Program-made: the position numbers and the translations under genes
Assembly (NCBI RefSeq): GCF_900114285.1
Contig: NZ_FOSN01000008.1
Span: forward strand, 124,001-188,000
Direction: 5' to 3'
From: Methylocapsa palsarum
GTDB taxonomy: Bacteria; Pseudomonadota; Alphaproteobacteria; Rhizobiales; Beijerinckiaceae
DNA: 64,000 nt
The notes under the pieces: generated by a model
The model's input: the letters and a program-made list of their open reading frames with translations, nothing else
What the model was told of the DNA's origin: nothing
Database searches by the model: none
Shown here: positions 11,927 to 50,468 of the stretch, one piece after another
Position numbering within the stretch: the stretch's first letter is position 1
Layout of the letters: each line of letters starts with the position of its first letter

Positions 11927-12934
11927 ATGCGAAGGATCCTTGCGCAAGGATTAGCCGGAGCGACGATCGCAACCTTGATGGCGCTGGCCGGTCTGGGAGC
12001 CCCTTCGGCGTCCGCCGGCGATCTCGCCAGACCGGACGAAAAAACCTGGCGCGCGCCGGACGCCGGCGCCCTGCCCTATGATTCCCATGGACTGCTGGTG
12101 CGGCGCGGGCGTGATCTGATCACCGCGACCTACGCCCATATCGGCCCGGACGTCGCCAATTCCGCCAAACGTTTCGCCGGCAACAATCTTTCCTGCGGCA
12201 ATTGCCATCTCGACGCTGGCGCAAAGAAATTCGGCCTGCCCCTCTACGGGCTCTCTAGCGACTTCCCGAAATACAGCGCAAGGACCGGCGCCGAGATCTC
12301 CATCGAGGACCGCATCAATTCCTGCATGACGCGCAGCATGAACGGGCGGCCCCTCCCCGTGACGGGCCCGCAGATGAAGGCGCTGGTCTCGTATGTGAAG
12401 TTTCTGTCCTCGGGCCTTGCGCCGGGCGAGCAATTGCCGGGACATGGCGCGGGCAAGATGGCGGACCTCGACCGCGCGGCGGACCCCGCGCGCGGCGAAA
12501 AGGTCTATCAGCGCGCCTGCCTCGACTGCCACAACACAGACGGCTCCGGCGTCGCGCGCGACCCGAAAGCGTTGCAATTGGGCTATGCCGTGCCGCCGCT
12601 GTGGGGCAAGGACAGTTTCAACGAAGGCGCGGGCATGGCGCGGATCGGCGATCTCGCCAATTTCGTCCATTCCAACATGCCGCACGGCGCGGATTATTTA
12701 AACCCGCTGCTGAGCGACGAGGACTCCTGGGACGTCGCGGCTTATGTCGAATCGCAGCAAAGGCCGCAAAAACCCGGCCTCGCCGAGGATTTTTCCGGCC
12801 ATTTGCTGGATAAGCCGGTCGATGCGCCCTATGGCCCCTACGCCGATGATTTTCCTGAATCGCAGCACAAATACGGGCCGTTCGGGCCGATCAGGGCCGA
12901 AATTGCTCGGTTGAAGGGCGAGGGGAAGAAGTAG
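11927..12934 (+). CDS. Dihaem cytochrome c, thiosulfate dehydrogenase TsdA-like
   Basis: 335 residues from an ATG with AGGA just upstream; the frame is open earlier but overlaps the peptidase gene. A signal peptide ends near SASAGD. There are two haem-c sites: CGNCH and CLDCH. Forty-three residues after the first haem cysteine is DRINSCMTRSMNG, whose cysteine sits where TsdA has its unusual axial Cys ligand to haem 1. The second haem region has NFVHSNMP, supplying a plausible Met ligand. This spacing supports thiosulfate dehydrogenase/tetrathionate reductase rather than a generic cytochrome c. The protein would be periplasmic. Its spacer with the peptidase gene contains 15-17 bp near-repeats. 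No sox gene is nearby, so the direction of catalysis is open. Confidence 0.75.
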   Translation: MRRILAQGLAGATIATLMALAGLGAPSASAGDLARPDEKTWRAPDAGALPYDSHGLLVRRGRDLITATYAHIGPDVANSAKRFAGNNLSCGNCHLDAGAKKFGLPLYGLSSDFPKYSARTGAEISIEDRINSCMTRSMNGRPLPVTGPQMKALVSYVKFLSSGLAPGEQLPGHGAGKMADLDRAADPARGEKVYQRACLDCHNTDGSGVARDPKALQLGYAVPPLWGKDSFNEGAGMARIGDLANFVHSNMPHGADYLNPLLSDEDSWDVAAYVESQQRPQKPGLAEDFSGHLLDKPVDAPYGPYADDFPESQHKYGPFGPIRAEIARLKGEGKK

Positions 12935-13131
12935 CCCGGGAAATCGCGCTAAAAGAATGGTGACGGCGCGCCCGCCGGTCCAAAATCGCTATGCTCGCGG
13001 CTAGTCCGCGCGAGCTGTCGCATGCGCTTTGGTCGAGGCGTCCGCTGCCGACCTGCGATAATCAAGACCTGAGATAATCAAGAAACCCGCGCCGGCGGCT
13101 GATGCAGATTTCGAGGGCGCCGAGAGCTGGC

Positions 13132-13247
13132 TAGCGCCTATTCCGATCGGATTGAATCAATCCAATCGACAAGACTATGCTCAAGCTTTTGACTCTTGAG
13201 CGATTTCTGATCGATCGCATGACTTCATGCGATCGGAAAGCGCTCTA
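13132..13247 (-). repeat. Dispersed two-hairpin repeat, copy A (116 bp)
   Basis: Nearly the reverse complement of copy E (34974-35089). It consists of two imperfect hairpins joined by a link containing AAGCTT: one around GATTGAATCAATCCAATC and one around CGATCGCATGACTTCATG. The right end CTCTA provides, on the minus strand, the TAG stop codon of the DUF1398 gene (13245-13247). The 12935-13131 spacer before it holds no gene, only a 16-bp tandem duplication near 13057. Confidence 0.85.
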
Positions 13248-13646
13248 TTGCGGAAAATGCTCGACGTGCGTCTCGGCTGTGCGGCCGAAATAGACGGCGC
13301 GACGCCCGCTAAAAGAGACGATGTAGCCCGCGCACCCCGCCTCCATGACCTTTCGGCAAAAGCCCTCATAGGTGTAACCCGGCGCGAGCTGTTGCGCTTC
13401 GCGGATCGCGGCTTGGATGGAGGCCGCGTCAAAGAATTCCGCGACAGGCGCATTTGGCCGGAGCGTCCCCAGCTCGACGCTTTCGCCATCTGGGCGGTAA
13501 TAGACGGCTTTGGCGCGTCGGAAGTCTATGGAATAGCTTTCAAAGCCTTCCTGCATCAGCGCGCCCACGATTTGCGGGAACGTCATCGTGTGACGTTCCG
13601 CGCCTTGCAGGCATGTCTCGGCAATTTGTATGAGGCGATCTTCCAT
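13245..13646 (-). CDS. DUF1398 family protein
   Basis: 133 residues, starting at the ATG at 13646, which has a GGAAAGA ribosome site; the longer frame would run into the MarR gene. The sequence (FPQIVGALMQEGFESYSIDFRRAKAVYYRPDGES near residues 24-55; GYTYEGFCRKVMEAGCAGYIVSF later) fits DUF1398, small soluble proteins of unknown role. Its TAG stop lies exactly at the edge of repeat copy A, so the repeat may also end transcription. It is 17 bp downstream of the MarR gene on the same strand, so the two are probably co-transcribed and controlled by the MarR operator. Confidence 0.75.
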   Translation of the reverse strand: MEDRLIQIAETCLQGAERHTMTFPQIVGALMQEGFESYSIDFRRAKAVYYRPDGESVELGTLRPNAPVAEFFDAASIQAAIREAQQLAPGYTYEGFCRKVMEAGCAGYIVSFSGRRAVYFGRTAETHVEHFPQ

Positions 13647-13663
13647 TTTCTGTCTTTCCGTAA

Positions 13664-14119
13664 TCACTCGATGGGTATGGCGGTAATGCCCAAATGCACG
13701 ACGGCCTCCTTCAATATCCGCCTCAGCGTGGCGCGATCTTCGCTGCTGAAATGCCCGAAGCATTCGGCTTCGTTCTGTTCAGCCAGCGCGGCGAGTTCGG
13801 GCGCCATTTGCGCCCCTTGTGCTGTTAGCCGCAGAGTTTGCGCGCGCCCGTCAGTAGAGCTGGCTTTCCGTGCAACCAGCGACTTCGAGATGAGACGATC
13901 CGCCAGCTTTGAAATTGCGCCGCGCGTCATGCCCATCTCATCGGCGAGCTGACTTGGCGCTATGGGCTGTTTGCTGTGAAGCACGCGCATCATCGCCCAT
14001 TCTGCGACAGTCACGTCTTTTGTCGCCACTTTGCGAGCAAAGGCGTGGGACACGTGGTTCGAGACCTGGCGCAGCTGGTAGCCGAGGTGTGCGGTCAGTT
14101 CGGGAATGTTATCGGTCAT
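13664..14119 (-). CDS. MarR family transcriptional regulator
   Basis: 151 residues from the ATG at 14119 (AAGG ribosome site). The longer open frame would read through the operator and is rejected. The winged helix-turn-helix is clear at about 48-85: TVAEWAMMRVL, then IAPSQLADEMGMTRGAISKLADRL, followed by the wing with SSTDGRAQTLRLT. MarR proteins bind DNA as dimers and are usually released by a small ligand or oxidation; two cysteines are not obvious here. A perfect inverted repeat sits 13 bp upstream of the start, so autoregulation is very likely. DUF1398 is the probable co-regulated partner; purB is divergent. Confidence 0.9.
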   Translation of the reverse strand: MTDNIPELTAHLGYQLRQVSNHVSHAFARKVATKDVTVAEWAMMRVLHSKQPIAPSQLADEMGMTRGAISKLADRLISKSLVARKASSTDGRAQTLRLTAQGAQMAPELAALAEQNEAECFGHFSSEDRATLRRILKEAVVHLGITAIPIE

Positions 14120-14131
14120 TGCGCCTTCAAA

Positions 14132-14177
14132 TAGGTTGACTAGGAAACTAATCAGATAAAGTTTCCTAGTCAACCTA
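14132..14177. promoter_or_regulatory. MarR operator: perfect 18-bp inverted repeat, each arm itself a dyad
   Basis: Arms TAGGTTGACTAGGAAACT (14132-14149) and its exact complement (14160-14177) are separated by 10 bp. Each arm contains a smaller dyad, GTT-N2-CTAG-N2-AAC, the size of one MarR dimer site, so two dimers could bind side by side. A -35-like TTGACT lies in each arm. The site is between marR (minus) and purB (plus, start 14368). Confidence 0.8.
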
Positions 14178-14367
14178 ATTTCGCTCTTCGGCGCATTAAT
14201 CGGGACTTGCGCAGAGACCCGCACAGGAATGAGGCGCAAATCGCACTCCAACCCACGCTCGAAAACTTGAATTCATAAACGATTTCACGCCCCTCATTAG
14301 ACTTCCCGCCGCCTCCCATGGTACCGGCTGACGCCTCCCGAGCGCTCGCCTCACTGGAACCGCCAAA

Positions 14368-15675
14368 ATGATCCCCCGTTACTCCCGCCCCGAAATGGTC
14401 GCCGTCTGGGACGCGCAGACAAGGTTCCGCATCTGGTTCGAGATCGAGGCGCACGCCTGCGACGCTCTGGCGGAGATCGGCGTCATCCCCAAAGCCTCCG
14501 CCAAGGCGATCTGGGACAAGGCGGGCCATGTGGCCTTCGACGTCGCCCGCGTCGACGAGATCGAGAAGGTCACCAAGCACGACGTCATCGCGTTCCTGAC
14601 CCATCTCGCCGAGTTCATCGGCGAGGATTCGCGCTTCGTGCATCAGGGCATGACCTCGTCCGACGTGCTCGACACCTGCCTCGCCGTGCAGCTCGCCCGC
14701 GCCTCCGACCTTCTCCTCGCCGACATCGACGCCCTGCTCGCGGCGCTGAAGCGGCGGGCGTTCGAGCATAAATTGACCCCGACGATCGGCCGCTCGCATG
14801 GCATCCACGCAGAGCCGGTGACCTTCGGGTTGAAGCTGGCGCAGGCCCACGCCGAATTCGCCCGCGCGCGCGAACGTCTCGTCAACGCCCGCAAGGAAAT
14901 CGCCACCTGCGCGATTTCGGGCGCGGTCGGCACCTTCGCCAATATCGATTCGCGCGTCGAGGCGCATGTCGCCGCAAAGCTCGGGCTCACGGTCGAGCCG
15001 GCCTCGACCCAGATCATCCCGCGCGACCGCCATGCGATGTTCTTTGCGACGCTCGGCGTCATCGCCTCATCTATGGAGCGGCTCGCGACCGAAATCCGGC
15101 ACTTGCAGCGCACCGAAGTTCTTGAGGTCGAGGAATTCTTCTCGGAAGGCCAGAAAGGCTCCTCCGCGATGCCTCACAAGCGCAATCCGGTGCTGACCGA
15201 AAATGTCACCGGCCTCGCCCGCCTCGTGCGCGGCATGGCGCTGCCGGCGATGGAGAACGTGGCGCTCTGGCACGAGCGCGACATCTCGCATTCCTCGGTC
15301 GAGCGGATGATCGCGCCCGATGCCACGGTCACGCTGGATTTCGCGCTGAACCGGCTGACCGGCGTCATCGACAAGCTTCTCGTCTATCCTGCCAATATGA
15401 AGAAAAACCTCGACCGGCTCGGCGGTCTCATTCATTCGCAGCGCGTGCTGCTCGCCCTGACCCAAAAAGGCGTCAGCCGGGAGGACGCCTATTCCTTGGT
15501 GCAGCGCAACGCCATGCCGGTCTGGCGCGGCGAGGGGGATTTCCTCACCCTCCTGAAAAGCGACGGCGACGTCGCCAAGGCGCTGAGCGCCGCGGAACTC
15601 GAAGACCTGTTCGATCTCGGCTATCATCTGAAAAATATCGACATTATCTTCGATCGCGTCTTCGGAGAAGCTTGA
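14368..15675 (+). CDS. purB: Adenylosuccinate lyase
   Basis: 435 residues. It catalyses two fumarate-releasing steps of purine synthesis (SAICAR to AICAR, adenylosuccinate to AMP). The superfamily signature GSSAMPHKRNP is present around residue 265. The catalytic histidine region GRSHGIHAEPVTFG (near 140) and the N-terminal HDVIAFL/TSSDVLDT motifs are also present. Length and absence of insertions fit the short bacterial form. It is transcribed away from the MarR gene. The spacer of about 190 bp after the operator shows no other element I can support. Confidence 0.96.
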   Translation: MIPRYSRPEMVAVWDAQTRFRIWFEIEAHACDALAEIGVIPKASAKAIWDKAGHVAFDVARVDEIEKVTKHDVIAFLTHLAEFIGEDSRFVHQGMTSSDVLDTCLAVQLARASDLLLADIDALLAALKRRAFEHKLTPTIGRSHGIHAEPVTFGLKLAQAHAEFARARERLVNARKEIATCAISGAVGTFANIDSRVEAHVAAKLGLTVEPASTQIIPRDRHAMFFATLGVIASSMERLATEIRHLQRTEVLEVEEFFSEGQKGSSAMPHKRNPVLTENVTGLARLVRGMALPAMENVALWHERDISHSSVERMIAPDATVTLDFALNRLTGVIDKLLVYPANMKKNLDRLGGLIHSQRVLLALTQKGVSREDAYSLVQRNAMPVWRGEGDFLTLLKSDGDVAKALSAAELEDLFDLGYHLKNIDIIFDRVFGEA

Positions 15676-15705
15676 CGCCCTCCCCTGCCCGGAAAGGATC
15701 GCCGC

Positions 15706-16326
15706 TTGAACCCCAGCCTTGTCGACTTCACCGGACGGGCTCTTTCAAACGGCATCGAGCGCGACGAGATTTCGCGAGCGCTGCGCTCGGCGGGATGGCC
15801 CGAGGATGAGATCGCCGCGGCCCTCGGCGCGTTCGCGGAGGTCGATTTTCCGTTTCCCGTCCCAAAGCCGAAACCGCATCTCTCAGCGCGCGAGACATTC
15901 ATTCATCTCGTCCTTTTTGTCTCGCTCTACACCTGCCTCTGGGCGATTGTCTCGATCATTTTCAGCTTCATCGACCGCTCGCTCCCGGATCCGCTTCACG
16001 CCGGAGAAGGCTTCGCCGAGACGATCCGCAACGAGATTTCGACCCTGATCGTTTTCTTTCCCTTGTTCGTTTTGATGTTCCGCTATGCCGAGCGGAACCG
16101 GGCGGACCCCGCCCGCCGCGATTCCAAAGTGCGCCGATGGATCATTTTCCTCACGCTCTTCGTCGCGGCGATCATTTTCGCCGGCGATCTCGTGGCGCTC
16201 GTCCAGTCTGTCCTCGGCGGCGCACTGACGTCGCGGTTTTTCTTCAAAAGCCTCACCATCGCGATCGTCGCCGGCGGCCTGTTCGCCTTTTTCCTCCATG
16301 ACGTGCGCCAGGACGAACAGCAATGA
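15706..16326 (+). CDS. DUF5671 domain membrane protein
   Basis: 206 residues from a TTG start with a GGAAAGGA-like ribosome site. The N-terminal 45 residues form a small soluble helical region (ALRSAGWPEDEIAAAL) resembling a UBA-like helix bundle. Four transmembrane helices follow: about 65-90 (FIHLVLFVSLYTCLWAIVSI), 110-128, 145-165 and 178-195. The PKPHLSARETFIHLVLFVSLY block matches DUF5671. Function is unknown. The stop overlaps the next start (ATGA), so the two proteins are probably made together. Confidence 0.7.
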   Translation: MNPSLVDFTGRALSNGIERDEISRALRSAGWPEDEIAAALGAFAEVDFPFPVPKPKPHLSARETFIHLVLFVSLYTCLWAIVSIIFSFIDRSLPDPLHAGEGFAETIRNEISTLIVFFPLFVLMFRYAERNRADPARRDSKVRRWIIFLTLFVAAIIFAGDLVALVQSVLGGALTSRFFFKSLTIAIVAGGLFAFFLHDVRQDEQQ

Positions 16327-16769
16327 GCGGCGCAAGCCGCGCTCCGCTGATCTTTCTGACGGCAAGCTCCATTCTCGTCGCCGGCGTGATCGCCGCCGGA
16401 CTTTGGATCACGCCCTCGCCTTCGAGGCAGCGCGCGATCGATCTCGACCGACAGGAAATTTCCGACCTCACCGCCCTTGCGCAAGCCGTTCTCGCCTCTC
16501 AGCGCGCCAGCGGAAAATGGCCGGCCTCGCTTCGCACTCTGCCGGAGGCTGCGTCGCTGCGCCTCGCCGATGCGGCGACAGGCGCCGAATACGAATACAT
16601 CCTGAACGATTCCAAACGATTTCAGCTTTGCGCTGTTTTCACGACGGTTTCCGACCGCGCCGTCAGTTCGTCTCCGCCCGAAGCCTCCGGCTGGAAGCAT
16701 CAGCGGGGGCGCCAATGCTTCGCCTTTTCGACTTCGCCGGGCGCCACCCCACGCGAGACGCAGGACTGA
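16323..16769 (+). CDS. Uncharacterised single-span protein coupled to the DUF5671 gene
   Basis: 148 residues, starting in an ATGA overlap with the DUF5671 gene. One N-terminal transmembrane helix (LIFLTASSILVAGVIAAGLWI) is followed by a periplasmic domain. Its layout is a helix (DLTALAQAVLASQ), GKWPASLRTLPE, then strands around EYEYILNDSKRFQLCAVF and GRQCFAF. That pattern, with a late cysteine pair, loosely resembles pseudopilin-like C-terminal domains, but there is no prepilin cleavage motif. I do not recognise the family. Confidence 0.6.
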   Translation: MSGASRAPLIFLTASSILVAGVIAAGLWITPSPSRQRAIDLDRQEISDLTALAQAVLASQRASGKWPASLRTLPEAASLRLADAATGAEYEYILNDSKRFQLCAVFTTVSDRAVSSSPPEASGWKHQRGRQCFAFSTSPGATPRETQD

Positions 16770-16845
16770 GCCGGTTGAACGCCCGGGCCTTTCGTGTAGG
16801 AAAGGCGGCTACGGCGGCGCGCCCGCCACAGACAACGGAGTTTAG

Positions 16846-17493
16846 ATGAGAAGCGAAAATCGTCTTGACGGCCTGATCGCCCGGATCGTCGCGGATGAAA
16901 CCCTTCACGCGAGATGGCTCAATACGTTCTCCTTTCTCGAATATGTCGGGTTCCGCAAGATCGTGAAAAGCCAGCGGGCGGACATGATGTCGGCCGCGAT
17001 CCTGACTCATGCTCTCGAGGAAGGCCGCCATGCTCTCGGCCTCAAGAAACTTGCGACGAAACTCGGGGGCGCCGGCTTCGACTCCTATACGCACGAATCG
17101 CTTCTTTGCGGCGAGGAGGCCGAGACCTACTTCCAGAACCTCGACGGGGCCTGCGAAGACGCATTGCTGGCTTTGCCCGAGGCCGAACGCGCGAAGCTCG
17201 TCTATTGTTATGTGACCTGGCTCATCGAGCGCCGGGCGCTCGATGTCTATAGCGTTTATAAAGCGGCGCTCGGCGAATCCGAGATCGCGCGCAAGCTGCA
17301 TGGACTGCTCGCCGAGGAGGAGAAACACCTCGCCGACGTCGAAGGCTGGCTGCGGGCGAGCGACCCGCACTTCGCCGAACGCTCGAAAGCCTTCGAGACG
17401 ATCGAGGAGAACCTCTATGTCCGCTTTATCGACGCCCTGACCCAGGAACTCGCGTTCGCGGCGGAGCCGGCTCTCGCGCCGGCCGGCGGCTGA
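16846..17493 (+). CDS. Ferritin-like diiron protein, uncharacterised
   Basis: 215 residues, all helical. Metal-ligand spacing of a diiron four-helix bundle is visible: Glu32 (FLEYVGF), Glu59-x-x-His62 (EEGRH), a glutamate in LIERRALD near 126, and a second E-x-x-H in EEEKHLADV near 155. That resembles the ferritin-like superfamily (rubrerythrin, MiaE and related oxygenases) but not one named family. The protein is cytoplasmic. An alpha/beta hydrolase gene follows after 22 bp, suggesting an operon. Oxidation, iron storage or peroxide reduction are all possible. Confidence 0.65.
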   Translation: MRSENRLDGLIARIVADETLHARWLNTFSFLEYVGFRKIVKSQRADMMSAAILTHALEEGRHALGLKKLATKLGGAGFDSYTHESLLCGEEAETYFQNLDGACEDALLALPEAERAKLVYCYVTWLIERRALDVYSVYKAALGESEIARKLHGLLAEEEKHLADVEGWLRASDPHFAERSKAFETIEENLYVRFIDALTQELAFAAEPALAPAGG

Positions 17494-17515
17494 ACGTCTC
17501 GCCAGAATCGCGCCG

Positions 17516-18076
17516 ATGCGAAGTTCCGAGGCTGATATTCTCATCGTGCCGGGCTGGCTGAATTCGGGCCCGGATCATTGGCAGACCCGCTGGGAAGCCA
17601 AACTGCCGACCGCGCGCCGAATCGTTCAGGACGATTGGGAAAAACCTGAATTCAACGCCTGGATCAGCCGGATCGCCGACGAGGTCGCGCGCGCCGAGCG
17701 GCCGGTCGTGCTCGTAGCGCATAGCCTTGGGGCGGTCGCGACGGCCCACGCCGGCGCGCTGATCGAGGATCGGGCTCCGGGCAAGGTCAAGGGCGCGTTT
17801 CTGGTCGCGCCCGCCGCCGCTTCGGCCATCGCGGGGCTCGCGGATGTCGATCCGGCCTTCGCCGTCTTGCCCGAAAGACCGCTGGCGTTCCCGGCGCTGC
17901 TGATCGCAAGCCGGGACGATCCCTATGCGCCTTTCGAGGAAAGCCAGCGGCTCAGCGAAGCCATCGGCGCGACCCTCGTCGACGCGGGAGCCTCGGGCCA
18001 CATCACCGACGAAAGCGGCCACGGCCCCTGGCCCGAGGGACTGATGCGCTTCGCGGGATTTTTGAAGACGCTATAG
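17516..18076 (+). CDS. RBBP9/YdeN family alpha/beta hydrolase
   Basis: 186 residues. An N-terminal IVPGWLNSGPDHWQTRWE block and the nucleophile elbow AHSLGAV (Ser near residue 70) mark the RBBP9/YdeN serine hydrolases. The acid is probably in SRDDPYAP and the histidine in DESGHGPWPEG. Known members are small soluble esterases with poorly defined substrates. The TAG stop codon is the first three bases of repeat copy B. The gene follows the ferritin-like gene closely and converges on the dihydroorotase gene. Confidence 0.82.
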   Translation: MRSSEADILIVPGWLNSGPDHWQTRWEAKLPTARRIVQDDWEKPEFNAWISRIADEVARAERPVVLVAHSLGAVATAHAGALIEDRAPGKVKGAFLVAPAAASAIAGLADVDPAFAVLPERPLAFPALLIASRDDPYAPFEESQRLSEAIGATLVDAGASGHITDESGHGPWPEGLMRFAGFLKTL

Positions 18077-18126
18077 AGCGCTTTCCGATCGGATTGAATC
18101 AATCCAATCGACAAGAATATGCTCTA
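18074..18126 (+). repeat. Dispersed repeat, copy B: 53-bp single-hairpin form
   Basis: It starts TAGAGCGCTTTCCGATCG like the left end of the full unit and ends AAGAATATGCTCTA like the right end. The middle (GATTGAATCAATCCAATC) comes from one hairpin only, so it looks like a recombinant or internally deleted unit. It forms the stop codon of the upstream hydrolase gene and fills the gap to the convergent dihydroorotase stop, where it could act as a two-way terminator. Confidence 0.8.
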
Positions 18127-18138
18127 ACGGCTCCGCGA

Positions 18139-19464
18139 TCACAAAGCCTGCCCGAAGCGCACCGCCGCTCCTCGCCCGGGCGACTTCACCTCGCCCTCCC
18201 ACATCACCCGCGCGCCGCGCACGATGGTTCCGACCGGCCAGCCTGTCACTTCAACGCCGTCATAGGGCGTCCAGCCGCAGCGCGACGCGATCCAGCGGTC
18301 CTCGATCCTCATGCGGCGCTTCAGGTCGACGATCGTGAAATCGGCGTCGTAGCCCGCCGCGATCCTGCCCTTCCCGGCGATGCCGAACAACCGCGCGGGG
18401 CCCGCGCTGGTGAGGTCCGCGAACCGCGACAGGCTGAGCCGTCCCCGGTTCACATGGTCCAGCATGACCGGAACGAGGGTCTGTACGCCGGTCATCCCGG
18501 ACGGACTTTGCGGATAGGGCCTCGCCTTCTCCTCCAGCGTATGCGGCGCATGGTCCGACCCCAGAATGTCCACGATCCCCTGCTCCACCCCGTACCAGAG
18601 ATGGTCGCGATGGCGGGCCTCGCGCACCGGCGGGTTCATCTGCAATTTCGTTCCGAGCCGCGCGTAATCCTCAGCGCTCAGCGTCAGATGATGCCCCGTC
18701 GCCTCGACGCTGGCGATGTCCTTGTGCTGTTCGAGAAAATCGATCTCCTCCGCCGTCGAGACGTGCAGCACGTGAACAAGCGCGCGCTGCTCCCGCGCGA
18801 TCCGGATCAGACGCTGCGTCGAGCGCAGGGCGGACACTTCGTCGCGCCAGACCGGGTGCGAGGCGGGGTCGCCGGCGAGGCGGAGAGGCTTGCGCTCCTC
18901 CAGCCGGTATTCGTCCTCGCAATGAAACGCCGCACGGCGGCGGGTCCGGCTGAGGATCGCGGCGACGCCGGCGTCGTCCTTGACCAGAAGCGAGCCCGTG
19001 GACGAGCCCATGAAGACCTTGATCCCGGCCGCGCCCGGCAGCCGCTCCAGTTCGGGGATGTCGCACGGATTTTCATTCGCGCCGCCGACCCAGAAAGCGA
19101 AATCGCAATGCATCCGGCCTGTCGCCAGAGTCATTTTATGGGCCAAGGCTTCGGCGCTGGTCGTCAGCGGGCTGGTGTTGGGCATTTCGAAGACCGCGGT
19201 GACCCCGCCAAGGACCGCCGCCCGCGACCCCGTCTCAAGATCTTCCTTGTGGGTGAGGCCGGGCTCGCGGAAATGGACCTGCGTGTCGATGACGCCCGGA
19301 AGAACAGTCAGGCCCGCGAGGTCGATCGTCTCGCCCGCGCTCGCTTGCCGGAGATCGCCGATGAAGGCGGTCTTTCCGTCCCGGATGCCGATGTCGCGCG
19401 CGCCCACGCCATTGTGATCGACGACGGCGCCCCCCTTCAGGATGAGATCGTATGTTTGCCTCAT
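18139..19464 (-). CDS. pyrC: Dihydroorotase (class I amidohydrolase)
   Basis: 441 residues from the ATG at 19464 with an AAGGAT ribosome site; 64 upstream codons of the open frame overlap ygfZ and are excluded. The zinc motif is TQVHFREPG; the carbamylated lysine is in GIKVFMGSSTGSLL. FHCEDEYRL, LHVSTAEEI and SDHAPH supply further ligands. The enzyme cyclises carbamoyl-aspartate in pyrimidine synthesis. Related hydantoinases and allantoinases share the fold, but DHFREPG-like and SDHAPH motifs favour dihydroorotase. It could be one of two paralogues, as many alphaproteobacteria carry both. Confidence 0.85.
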   Translation of the reverse strand: MRQTYDLILKGGAVVDHNGVGARDIGIRDGKTAFIGDLRQASAGETIDLAGLTVLPGVIDTQVHFREPGLTHKEDLETGSRAAVLGGVTAVFEMPNTSPLTTSAEALAHKMTLATGRMHCDFAFWVGGANENPCDIPELERLPGAAGIKVFMGSSTGSLLVKDDAGVAAILSRTRRRAAFHCEDEYRLEERKPLRLAGDPASHPVWRDEVSALRSTQRLIRIAREQRALVHVLHVSTAEEIDFLEQHKDIASVEATGHHLTLSAEDYARLGTKLQMNPPVREARHRDHLWYGVEQGIVDILGSDHAPHTLEEKARPYPQSPSGMTGVQTLVPVMLDHVNRGRLSLSRFADLTSAGPARLFGIAGKGRIAAGYDADFTIVDLKRRMRIEDRWIASRCGWTPYDGVEVTGWPVGTIVRGARVMWEGEVKSPGRGAAVRFGQAL

Positions 19465-24928: not shown

Positions 24929-25041
24929 GGGCATAGTCCGATTGGATTGAACTCATCCAATCATCAAGAATATGCTCAAGTTTCTGAATCCGGAGCGATT
25001 TCTGATCTACCGAATGATCACATCCGTCCGAAAAACGCTCT
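24929..25041 (-). repeat. Dispersed two-hairpin repeat, copy C (diverged)
   Basis: Same order as copy A. It keeps CATCAAGAATATGCTCAAG and GGAGCGATTTCTGATC, but the second hairpin has many substitutions (ACCGAATGATCACATCCGTC). The ends are worn, with no clear terminal TAG. It lies in the long gap between the divergent amidase and rne genes, on the amidase side. Confidence 0.65.
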
Positions 25042-32562: not shown

Positions 32563-32672
32563 TGAGCGCTTTCCGGCTGTATGCGATCCATCGGTTGATC
32601 AGAAATCGCTCCAGATTCAAAAGCTTGAGCATATTCTTGTCGATTGGTCCAATCCAATCGGAATATGCTCTA
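32563..32672 (+). repeat. Dispersed two-hairpin repeat, copy D (110 bp)
   Basis: Same orientation as copy E. GAGCGCTTTCC, GATCAGAAATCGCTCCAGA, AAGCTTGAGCATATTCTTGTCGA and the right hairpin ending GGAATATGCTCTAG are all kept. The left hairpin has lost symmetry (CGGCTGTATGCGATCCATCGG). It ends 40 bp before the flavoprotein start, so it may sit in that promoter region. Confidence 0.8.
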
Positions 32673-34973: not shown

Positions 34974-35089
34974 TAGAGCGCTTTCCGATCGCATGAAGTC
35001 ATGCGATCGATCAGAAATCGCTCCAGAGTCACAAGCTTGAGCATATTCTTGTCGATGGGATTGATTTAATCCGATTGGAATATGCTCTA
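34974..35089 (+). repeat. Dispersed two-hairpin repeat, copy E (116 bp, reference copy)
   Basis: Begins TAGAGCGCTTTCCGATCG and ends GGAATATGCTCTA. The left hairpin pairs GATCGCATGA with TCATGCGATC; the right pairs around GGGATTGATTTAATCCG. Between them is CCAGAGTCACAAGCTTGAGC. It lies between the split hicB and the uvrD stop (35096), so it may terminate uvrD transcription. Confidence 0.85.
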
Positions 35090-38683: not shown

Positions 38684-38819
38684 ACAGCCCGCCCAAGTGA
38701 GTTCCAACATTCTATCGTATCGCAGGCTTTACCACGACTCTAGAGCATGATCACGACTTAGAGCATGACGCCATAAGACGATTCACACCTACGGGATCGC
38801 CCGACGCGTAAAATTTATC

Positions 38820-50446: not shown

Positions 50447-50468
50447 TAGAGCGCTTTCCGATCGCATG
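50447..50468 (+). repeat. Dispersed repeat, copy F (left-end fragment)
   Basis: TAGAGCGCTTTCCGATCGCATG matches the left end of copy E over 22 bp. Beyond that it degrades, although TCCGTCCGAAAT just after recalls copy C. It lies in the DUF1674-rsmB gap. Confidence 0.6.

Follow-up and report, generated by a model that had tools for sequence, protein, structure and literature searches.

Introduction

Several families of short bacterial repeats offer points of comparison for the repeat studied here, and some of them reach into the ends of genes. The termini of GTAG-class repetitive extragenic palindromic (REP) sequences "often provide" a TAG stop codon to flanking open reading frames (ORFs) (PMC3733652). 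In Streptococcus pneumoniae, 36 genes end in a stop codon encoded by the BOX repeat, without strong evidence of truncated proteins (PMC3049150). The same organism carries RUP, a 107-bp repeat with a TA target for which an IS630-type insertion sequence (IS) has been proposed as partner (PMC2229807, PMC3049150). QMITE1 and QMITE2 of Coxiella burnetii share 1-50 bp with the 3' end of a gene and change protein size little (PMC5896051), and RIME are intergenic mosaic elements of rhizobia (PMC2573895). The subject of this study is a repeat of Methylocapsa palsarum whose terminal TAG is the stop codon of two genes in a 64,000-nt stretch of DNA (contig NZ_FOSN01000008.1, positions 124,001 to 188,000), hereafter called the window.

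The phenomenon is known in kind from other bacterial repeats, and the element described here adds precision and frequency. It resembles the GTAG REPs in the phenomenon itself, a repeat terminus that supplies a TAG stop, but it has mostly C or T before the TAG, is a 112-bp unit of two hairpins, and no REP-associated tyrosine transposase (RAYT) gene was found in its genome. With BOX it shares repeat-encoded stops and little sign of truncation; BOX, however, has another sequence and other modules, and its proposed partner is ISSpn2, which is not IS630. RUP has the TA target and the proposed IS630-type partner in common with it, yet RUP ends match IS630-Spn1 well whereas the present repeat shares only TAGAGC and a few further bases with IS ends. 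The QMITE overlap varies in length, while this repeat overlaps exactly the stop codon. RIME resemble it in being intergenic mosaic elements. A 2024 review of prokaryotic miniature inverted-repeat transposable elements (MITEs) contains neither the words "stop codon" nor IS630 (PMC10969869). No description of this repeat was found in open-access literature on Methylocella and Methylocapsa repeats or on stop-codon insertion by IS630 elements and MITEs, a partial coverage with most subscription papers outside it.

Repeat ends coincide with stop codons

Copies A and B of the repeat adjoin the genes for a DUF1398 protein and an RBBP9-type serine hydrolase, respectively (Table 1). The first-pass annotation had placed the stop codon of each gene in the terminal TAG of the adjoining copy, and the window sequence together with its ORFs confirmed both placements to the base. 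It had also counted six copies in the window, two of them at zero distance from a stop, and we located six repeat-bearing places. When copy A and one TA are removed, the window sequence at the end of the DUF1398 gene reads ..CCG CAA TAG CCA; the hydrolase gene without copy B and one TA reads ACG CTA TAA CGG. Replacement of the stop codons is not needed because an in-frame TAA or TAG is left in both genes. The annotation had offered insertion at stops or replacement of stops; insertion is the part that stood, on the junction bases and on the identical C-termini of repeat-free relatives described below.

Distances between element ends and gene ends were counted in two samples, and the stretches examined amount to about one fifth of the genome. 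The unselected sample consisted of 20 stretches placed at preset positions (400 kb; L415-L434) and the window, 21 stretches and 464 kb in all, and so includes the source of the original observation. The selected sample comprised 60 stretches (L081-L140) around exact matches to the terminal 14-mer TAGAGCGCTTTCCG, plus the window (579 kb). It holds 100/121 exact ends and is biased to ends with TA, that is, ends spelling TAG. Genes were called with a simple dicodon scorer made for the analysis, not taken from the annotated record. An end was considered in range when a gene on the same strand ended within -140 to +400 nt of it. Ends that did not start with GAGC were excluded from the offset counts in the selected sample and in congeners; 13/71 ends of the unselected set do not begin exactly with GAG.

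The unselected sample contained 43 elements with 71 ends. Of the 42 ends in range, 14 lay at offset 0, and any other offset occurred at most twice. Most of this signal comes from outside the window (12/14 zero-distance ends, 38/43 elements). Of the 402 genes called in this sample, 14 terminate in the repeat. The selected sample yielded 215 distinct ends, 143 of them in range; offset 0 was found in 60/143 and the next-highest count was 3. A-ends of that sample, for which there was no TA selection, were at offset 0 in 17/52 cases. Two congeners, G004 and G014, were included with copies from DNA-similarity and exact-end lists; their ends were matched loosely, with 119 and 53 putative ends as the result. 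Offset 0 was found in 15/60 (next count 4) and 10/31 (next count 3) in-range ends, respectively. The zero-distance effect is real and strong, and it extends beyond the window. This count had been proposed by the first-pass annotation, and the outcome of no enrichment is excluded for the stretches examined.

Protein C-termini in relatives that lack the repeat

A comparison with repeat-free relatives, also proposed at the outset, showed that the proteins end at the same place. The last residue of the hydrolase was the same in 67/93 related loci and at most one residue off in 83; at least six genomes are represented twice among the 93. Two outliers end 41 and 122 residues early; in one the locus itself ends there, and the other follows a partial match. 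Among the stops listed for the hydrolase relatives, none continues into TAGAGC. The DUF1398 protein had the same last residue in 19/29 relatives.

57/60 zero-distance genes were queried in the same way, with element-flagged orthologs left out. An element-free ortholog allowed 14 genes to be judged (46/60 were unjudgeable). The median difference was 0 in 10/14 and at most 3 residues in 13/14, compared with 22 and 28 of 34 controls, so the ends agree about as often as in controls. None of the 42 distinct ortholog ends (0/42) was more than 10 residues longer.

One of these genes, in L117, led to a separate observation. Its ortholog in G004 (L264:3175) has the same stop, which runs into a different hairpin-like sequence starting TAGAGCATTTTCGACC, and two other relatives have a plain CTAG at that stop position. 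One stop may have been used repeatedly by different repeats.

Junction bases and the proposed TA target

Junctions were compared in 63 near-full-length copies of the selected sample. Position -3 was C or T in 60 copies and position -2 was T in 60, while on the right side +2 was A in 55 and +3 was G or A in 62. The junctions mostly read YTA-GAGC...GCTC-NAR (Y, C or T; R, A or G), with N most often T. Before TAGAGC-type G-ends the base was C in 73, T in 34, A in 8 and G in 5 (n=120). The R after the right end was as constrained as the Y before the left end, which makes the target palindromic. Given the A-R on the far side, a phase-0 insertion can only have struck a TAA or TAG stop.

In 2/75 paired copies (L088 and L129), a single element supplies the stops of two convergent genes, one on each side. 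Removal of the element and one TA from L088 leaves, by eye, GGCTAATTG, in which a TAA and the opposite TAG share a single TA. Duplication of the TA is the easiest route from one shared TA to two stops. When the L088 locus was aligned to six relative loci, the alignment was two-sided only for two overlapping G004 loci, and we infer TA duplication from junction sequences rather than from a strain carrying the exact empty site.

Probable insertion of a mobile element into stop codons

The zero distance is probably explained by TA-targeted, TA-duplicating insertion of an IS630-like MITE into stop codons. The repeat would be non-autonomous and MITE-like, and would have moved into TA, mostly within YTAR and best within CTAG, with duplication of the TA. 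Its mobilizer would most likely be a transposase of the IS630/Tc1-mariner type. The target TA and the first G of the element, which starts with GAGC, would together spell TAG. If the TA of a TAA or TAG stop were struck, the last sense codon would be kept, the TAG would become the new stop, and the old TAA or TAG would come to lie beyond the element. The protein is expected to be unchanged because the new stop is made of TA and the G of the element while the old stop stays at the far end. Insertions within genes would be purged; stops would be places at the gene edge that are rich in the target motif and where insertion is harmless. According to the title of a 1991 paper, an IS630-associated transposon reportedly prefers TA in CTAG. 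ISY100, a member of the IS630 family, has TA as nearly its sole insertion site, with duplication of the TA (PMC2170065).

Genes for DDE_3 (IS630-family) transposases were found in 15/15 genomes of the genus that were searched, with four matches in the genome of the window. 6/30 IS630-family loci have IS ends of the form Y-TA-GAGC on both sides (L349, L350, L352, L355, L364 and L378); L350 is from the window's own genome, and three of the six loci are one IS of G001. Nine loci had passed the inverted-end threshold, and L353, L363 and L377 were set aside with the TA missing at one or both ends. The closest IS ends are those of L355 (G008, ~1371-2425), TAGAGCAGTTTC and TAGAGCGTTTTC, in which 9/10 and 8/10 terminal bases match those of the repeat. 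We infer the family of the transposase, because beyond TAGAGC the repeat shares only a few bases with IS ends, with little similarity further in.

These numbers show how a mobile repeat may be able to spread at little cost in a gene-dense, GC-rich genome: the target motif lies in the stop codon and the element end rebuilds the stop. They also carry a warning for annotation, since a TAG at the edge of a repeat may be the genuine stop of a gene rather than a sign of truncation. Orthologs with and without a 3' hairpin form a natural set for the effects of hairpins on mRNA.

Target availability and alternative explanations

Element positions were compared with the sites available. The unselected sample had 14 elements at stops, 29 in intergenic sequence and 0/43 in coding sequence; empty YTAR sites numbered 62 at stops, 397 intergenic and 297 coding (756 in total). 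TAA and TAG stops in these stretches were occupied in 14 cases and empty in 158. In the selected sample, stops were over-used relative to sites 1-100 nt downstream of stops, 3.5-fold for CTAG (p=0.006) and 4.2-fold for YTAR (p=2e-7). Within 30 nt downstream of stops, the counts for CTAG fit availability (42:5 vs 23:1, p=0.66), but YTAR still gave 2.5-fold (p=0.02). Much of the pattern is target choice plus coding purging, and a roughly 2-4-fold rest remains. Behind this modest excess may lie the transposase, selection, or the purging of insertions upstream of genes. CTAG was itself scarce in the 464 kb of the window's genome (174 observed vs 333 expected from trinucleotides), and stop codons are therefore a notable share of CTAG sites.

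Several results weigh against TA-targeted insertion as the full account. Target choice alone is insufficient, as stops were over-used 3.1-fold relative to intergenic YTAR (p=0.003) and 2.0-fold relative to intergenic CTAG (17 stop and 72 intergenic sites, p=0.12); these ratios count all elements, including those at stops without a preceding pyrimidine, and may be somewhat high. In the unselected set, such stops made up 5/15 of the TAG stops that continue into an element end; in the selected sample they were 5/60 of the zero-distance stops. Y before TA is a preference and not a rule. The 36 transposase loci searched (30 DDE_3, 6 Y1) yielded no partner IS whose terminal repeats match those of the element over a long stretch, and G008, the host of the closest IS ends, is without an exact 14-mer end. 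At two zero-distance genes the orthologs end elsewhere: L088 +1800 exceeds its orthologs by 2 and 11 residues, and the orthologs of L117 +10489 range from -4 to +10. Finally, simple TA duplication does not predict the variable base right after GCTC (T in 37/63, C in 15, A in 6 and G in 5) or the unselected set, where position -1 is A in 23/37 G-ends and 23/34 A-ends. The variable junction base had no associated column among internal variants (16 columns, best p 0.07), with equal divergence. In the selected sample it was tied to G at +3 (23/42 with G, 0/12 without; p=0.0005), which was not repeated in the unselected sample (p=0.39). One guess is that the variable base comes from the donor site and is carried over, as in imprecise IS630-type joining.

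The coincidence could instead reflect selection, if a stop joined to a strong 3' hairpin were favored as a combined stop and terminator or as protection of the mRNA 3' end, and elements were kept or recruited there. We consider this unlikely as the cause. The predicted hairpins of copy B, copy A and the copy at 34974 are strong (-19.0, -52.7 and -48.8 kcal/mol; z -3.9, -6.8 and -5.0), and the excess at stops over YTAR and CTAG in both samples is in the direction that selection would give. However, no U-run follows the hairpins in the window sequence and copies A and B are without a terminator-like site, although 7 such sites were found in 13000-18400 against 5.4 expected in shuffles; just past stops, moreover, CTAG availability alone accounts for the counts. 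A convergent neighbor was more common at zero-distance genes of the selected sample than at those empty YTAR-stop genes of the unselected sample that have a next gene (34/60 vs 17/51, odds ratio 2.6, p=0.02). The zero-distance genes had fewer tight tandem junctions (3/60 vs 8/51, p=0.11). These figures fit a transcript-ending element, but they are equally expected if structured inserts are harmful in operons and are purged between co-transcribed genes. The combined stop and terminator suggested in the first-pass annotation thus found little support, with target preference and coding purging giving much of the enrichment. The residual excess and the excess of convergent neighbors leave some room for selection. 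It is conceivable, though improbable, that the residual excess arises from a transposase drawn to the ends of translation or transcription in cells, or from selection of stop-joined hairpins as functional 3' modules, on about 8% of TAA and TAG stops. An intrinsic terminator was considered separately and rejected, as GC-rich hairpins are present but a U-tract and terminator-like sites are absent from the copies. No Rfam family matched 12900-18400 at E values of 1 or below.

Two further explanations concern the identity of the element and its effect on genes. Paired palindromes with TAG at the foot of a hairpin, and the reported role of GTAG REPs as suppliers of TAG stops (PMC3733652), would suit a REP or bacterial interspersed mosaic element (BIME) of the GTAG class, mobilized by a RAYT (Y1) transposase. 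Such an origin is very unlikely: G precedes TAG in only 5/120 G-ends, the target is palindromic with Y on the left and R on the right equally constrained, and Y1_Tnp (PF01797) matched nothing in the window's genome and was seen in just 3/15 genomes of the genus. This candidate is mostly refuted by the base that precedes TAG and by the absence of a Y1 match from the genome. The element's own TAG might also have shortened or extended the genes that it entered, with those of tolerable C-termini surviving, and a frame-0 element would halt translation at once. The two of 14 zero-distance genes that differ somewhat from their orthologs are what would be expected of such changes. We give this possibility hardly any weight. 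Truncation is not the cause because repeat-free relatives end at the same residue about as often as controls (10/14 vs 22/34), and the longer ortholog ends that truncation would leave were absent (0/42 beyond 10 residues).

Repeat structure and other copies

The repeat is short, multi-copy and without a transposase gene. It usually measures 116 bp with the flanking TAs and 112 bp from GAGC to GCTC, and it is laid out as TA-GAGCGCTTTCCGATCGCATGA...TCGCTC, a 15-nt spacer, and GAGCATA...GGAATATGCTC-TA, which form two palindromic modules. The 4.1-Mb genome holds 121 exact copies of the terminal 14-mer (66 + 55) and none of the reversed-pattern control. At least one exact repeat end was present in 11/14 genomes of the same genus vs 3/45 other genomes. 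The genus takes in both Methylocapsa and Methylocella, as judged from hydrolase loci of its genomes, which correspond to named records in identity and ends. A profile search with nhmmer found five copies in the window, at 13136-13245, 18076-18128, 24930-25040, 32564-32670 and 34976-35087.

Table 1. Copies of the repeat in the window, the genes they adjoin and the stop codons at their ends.
Feature	Position	Strand	Remarks
Copy A	13132..13247	-	Full-length; G-end TAGAGCGCTTTCC toward the DUF1398 gene; A-end degenerate, GGAATAGGCGCTA
Terminal TAG of copy A, stop of the DUF1398 gene	13245..13247	-	First three bases of copy A in minus-strand reading
TAG at the opposite end of copy A (TA plus the flanking G)	13131..13133	-	Likely remnant of the original stop
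DUF1398 gene	13245..13667	-	PF07166, 31.6 bits; coding part 13248-13646 used for comparison
RBBP9-type serine hydrolase gene	17516..18076	+	186 aa; Pfam Ser_hydrolase PF06821, 192.9 bits
Copy B	18074..18126	+	Short 53-nt hybrid of both hairpin modules, TAGAGC...GCTCTA
Terminal TAG of copy B, stop of the hydrolase gene	18074..18076	+	Copy B opens with these three bases, TAGAGCGCTTTCC...
TAA at the far end of copy B	18125..18127	+	Likely remnant of the original stop
Diverged copy	24930..25040	-	Profile match; not joined to a stop codon
Further copy	32564..32672	+	Profile match (nhmmer bounds 32564-32670); not joined to a stop codon
Full-length copy	34974..35089	+	TAGAGC...GCTCTA; not joined to a stop codon, nearest opposite-strand stop 9 nt from the A-end
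Fragment	50447..50460	+	Exact terminal 14-mer TAGAGCGCTTTCCG, then ATCGCATG, then non-element sequence

The 14-mer end with a base other than A before GAGC occurs 45 times in the genome, in some cases in tandem arrays. The G-ends in these arrays are 111-112 nt apart, whereas a TA between copies would give a spacing of 114. Arrays lie at C47:205691-205926, C43:45079-45204, C56:111751-111876, C40:90202-90327 and C37:168350-168475 of G000, the genome of the window. Elsewhere in the window, 38741-38752 (+) reads TAGAGCATGATC and is perhaps the end of another palindromic repeat family of the GAGCATGATC type.

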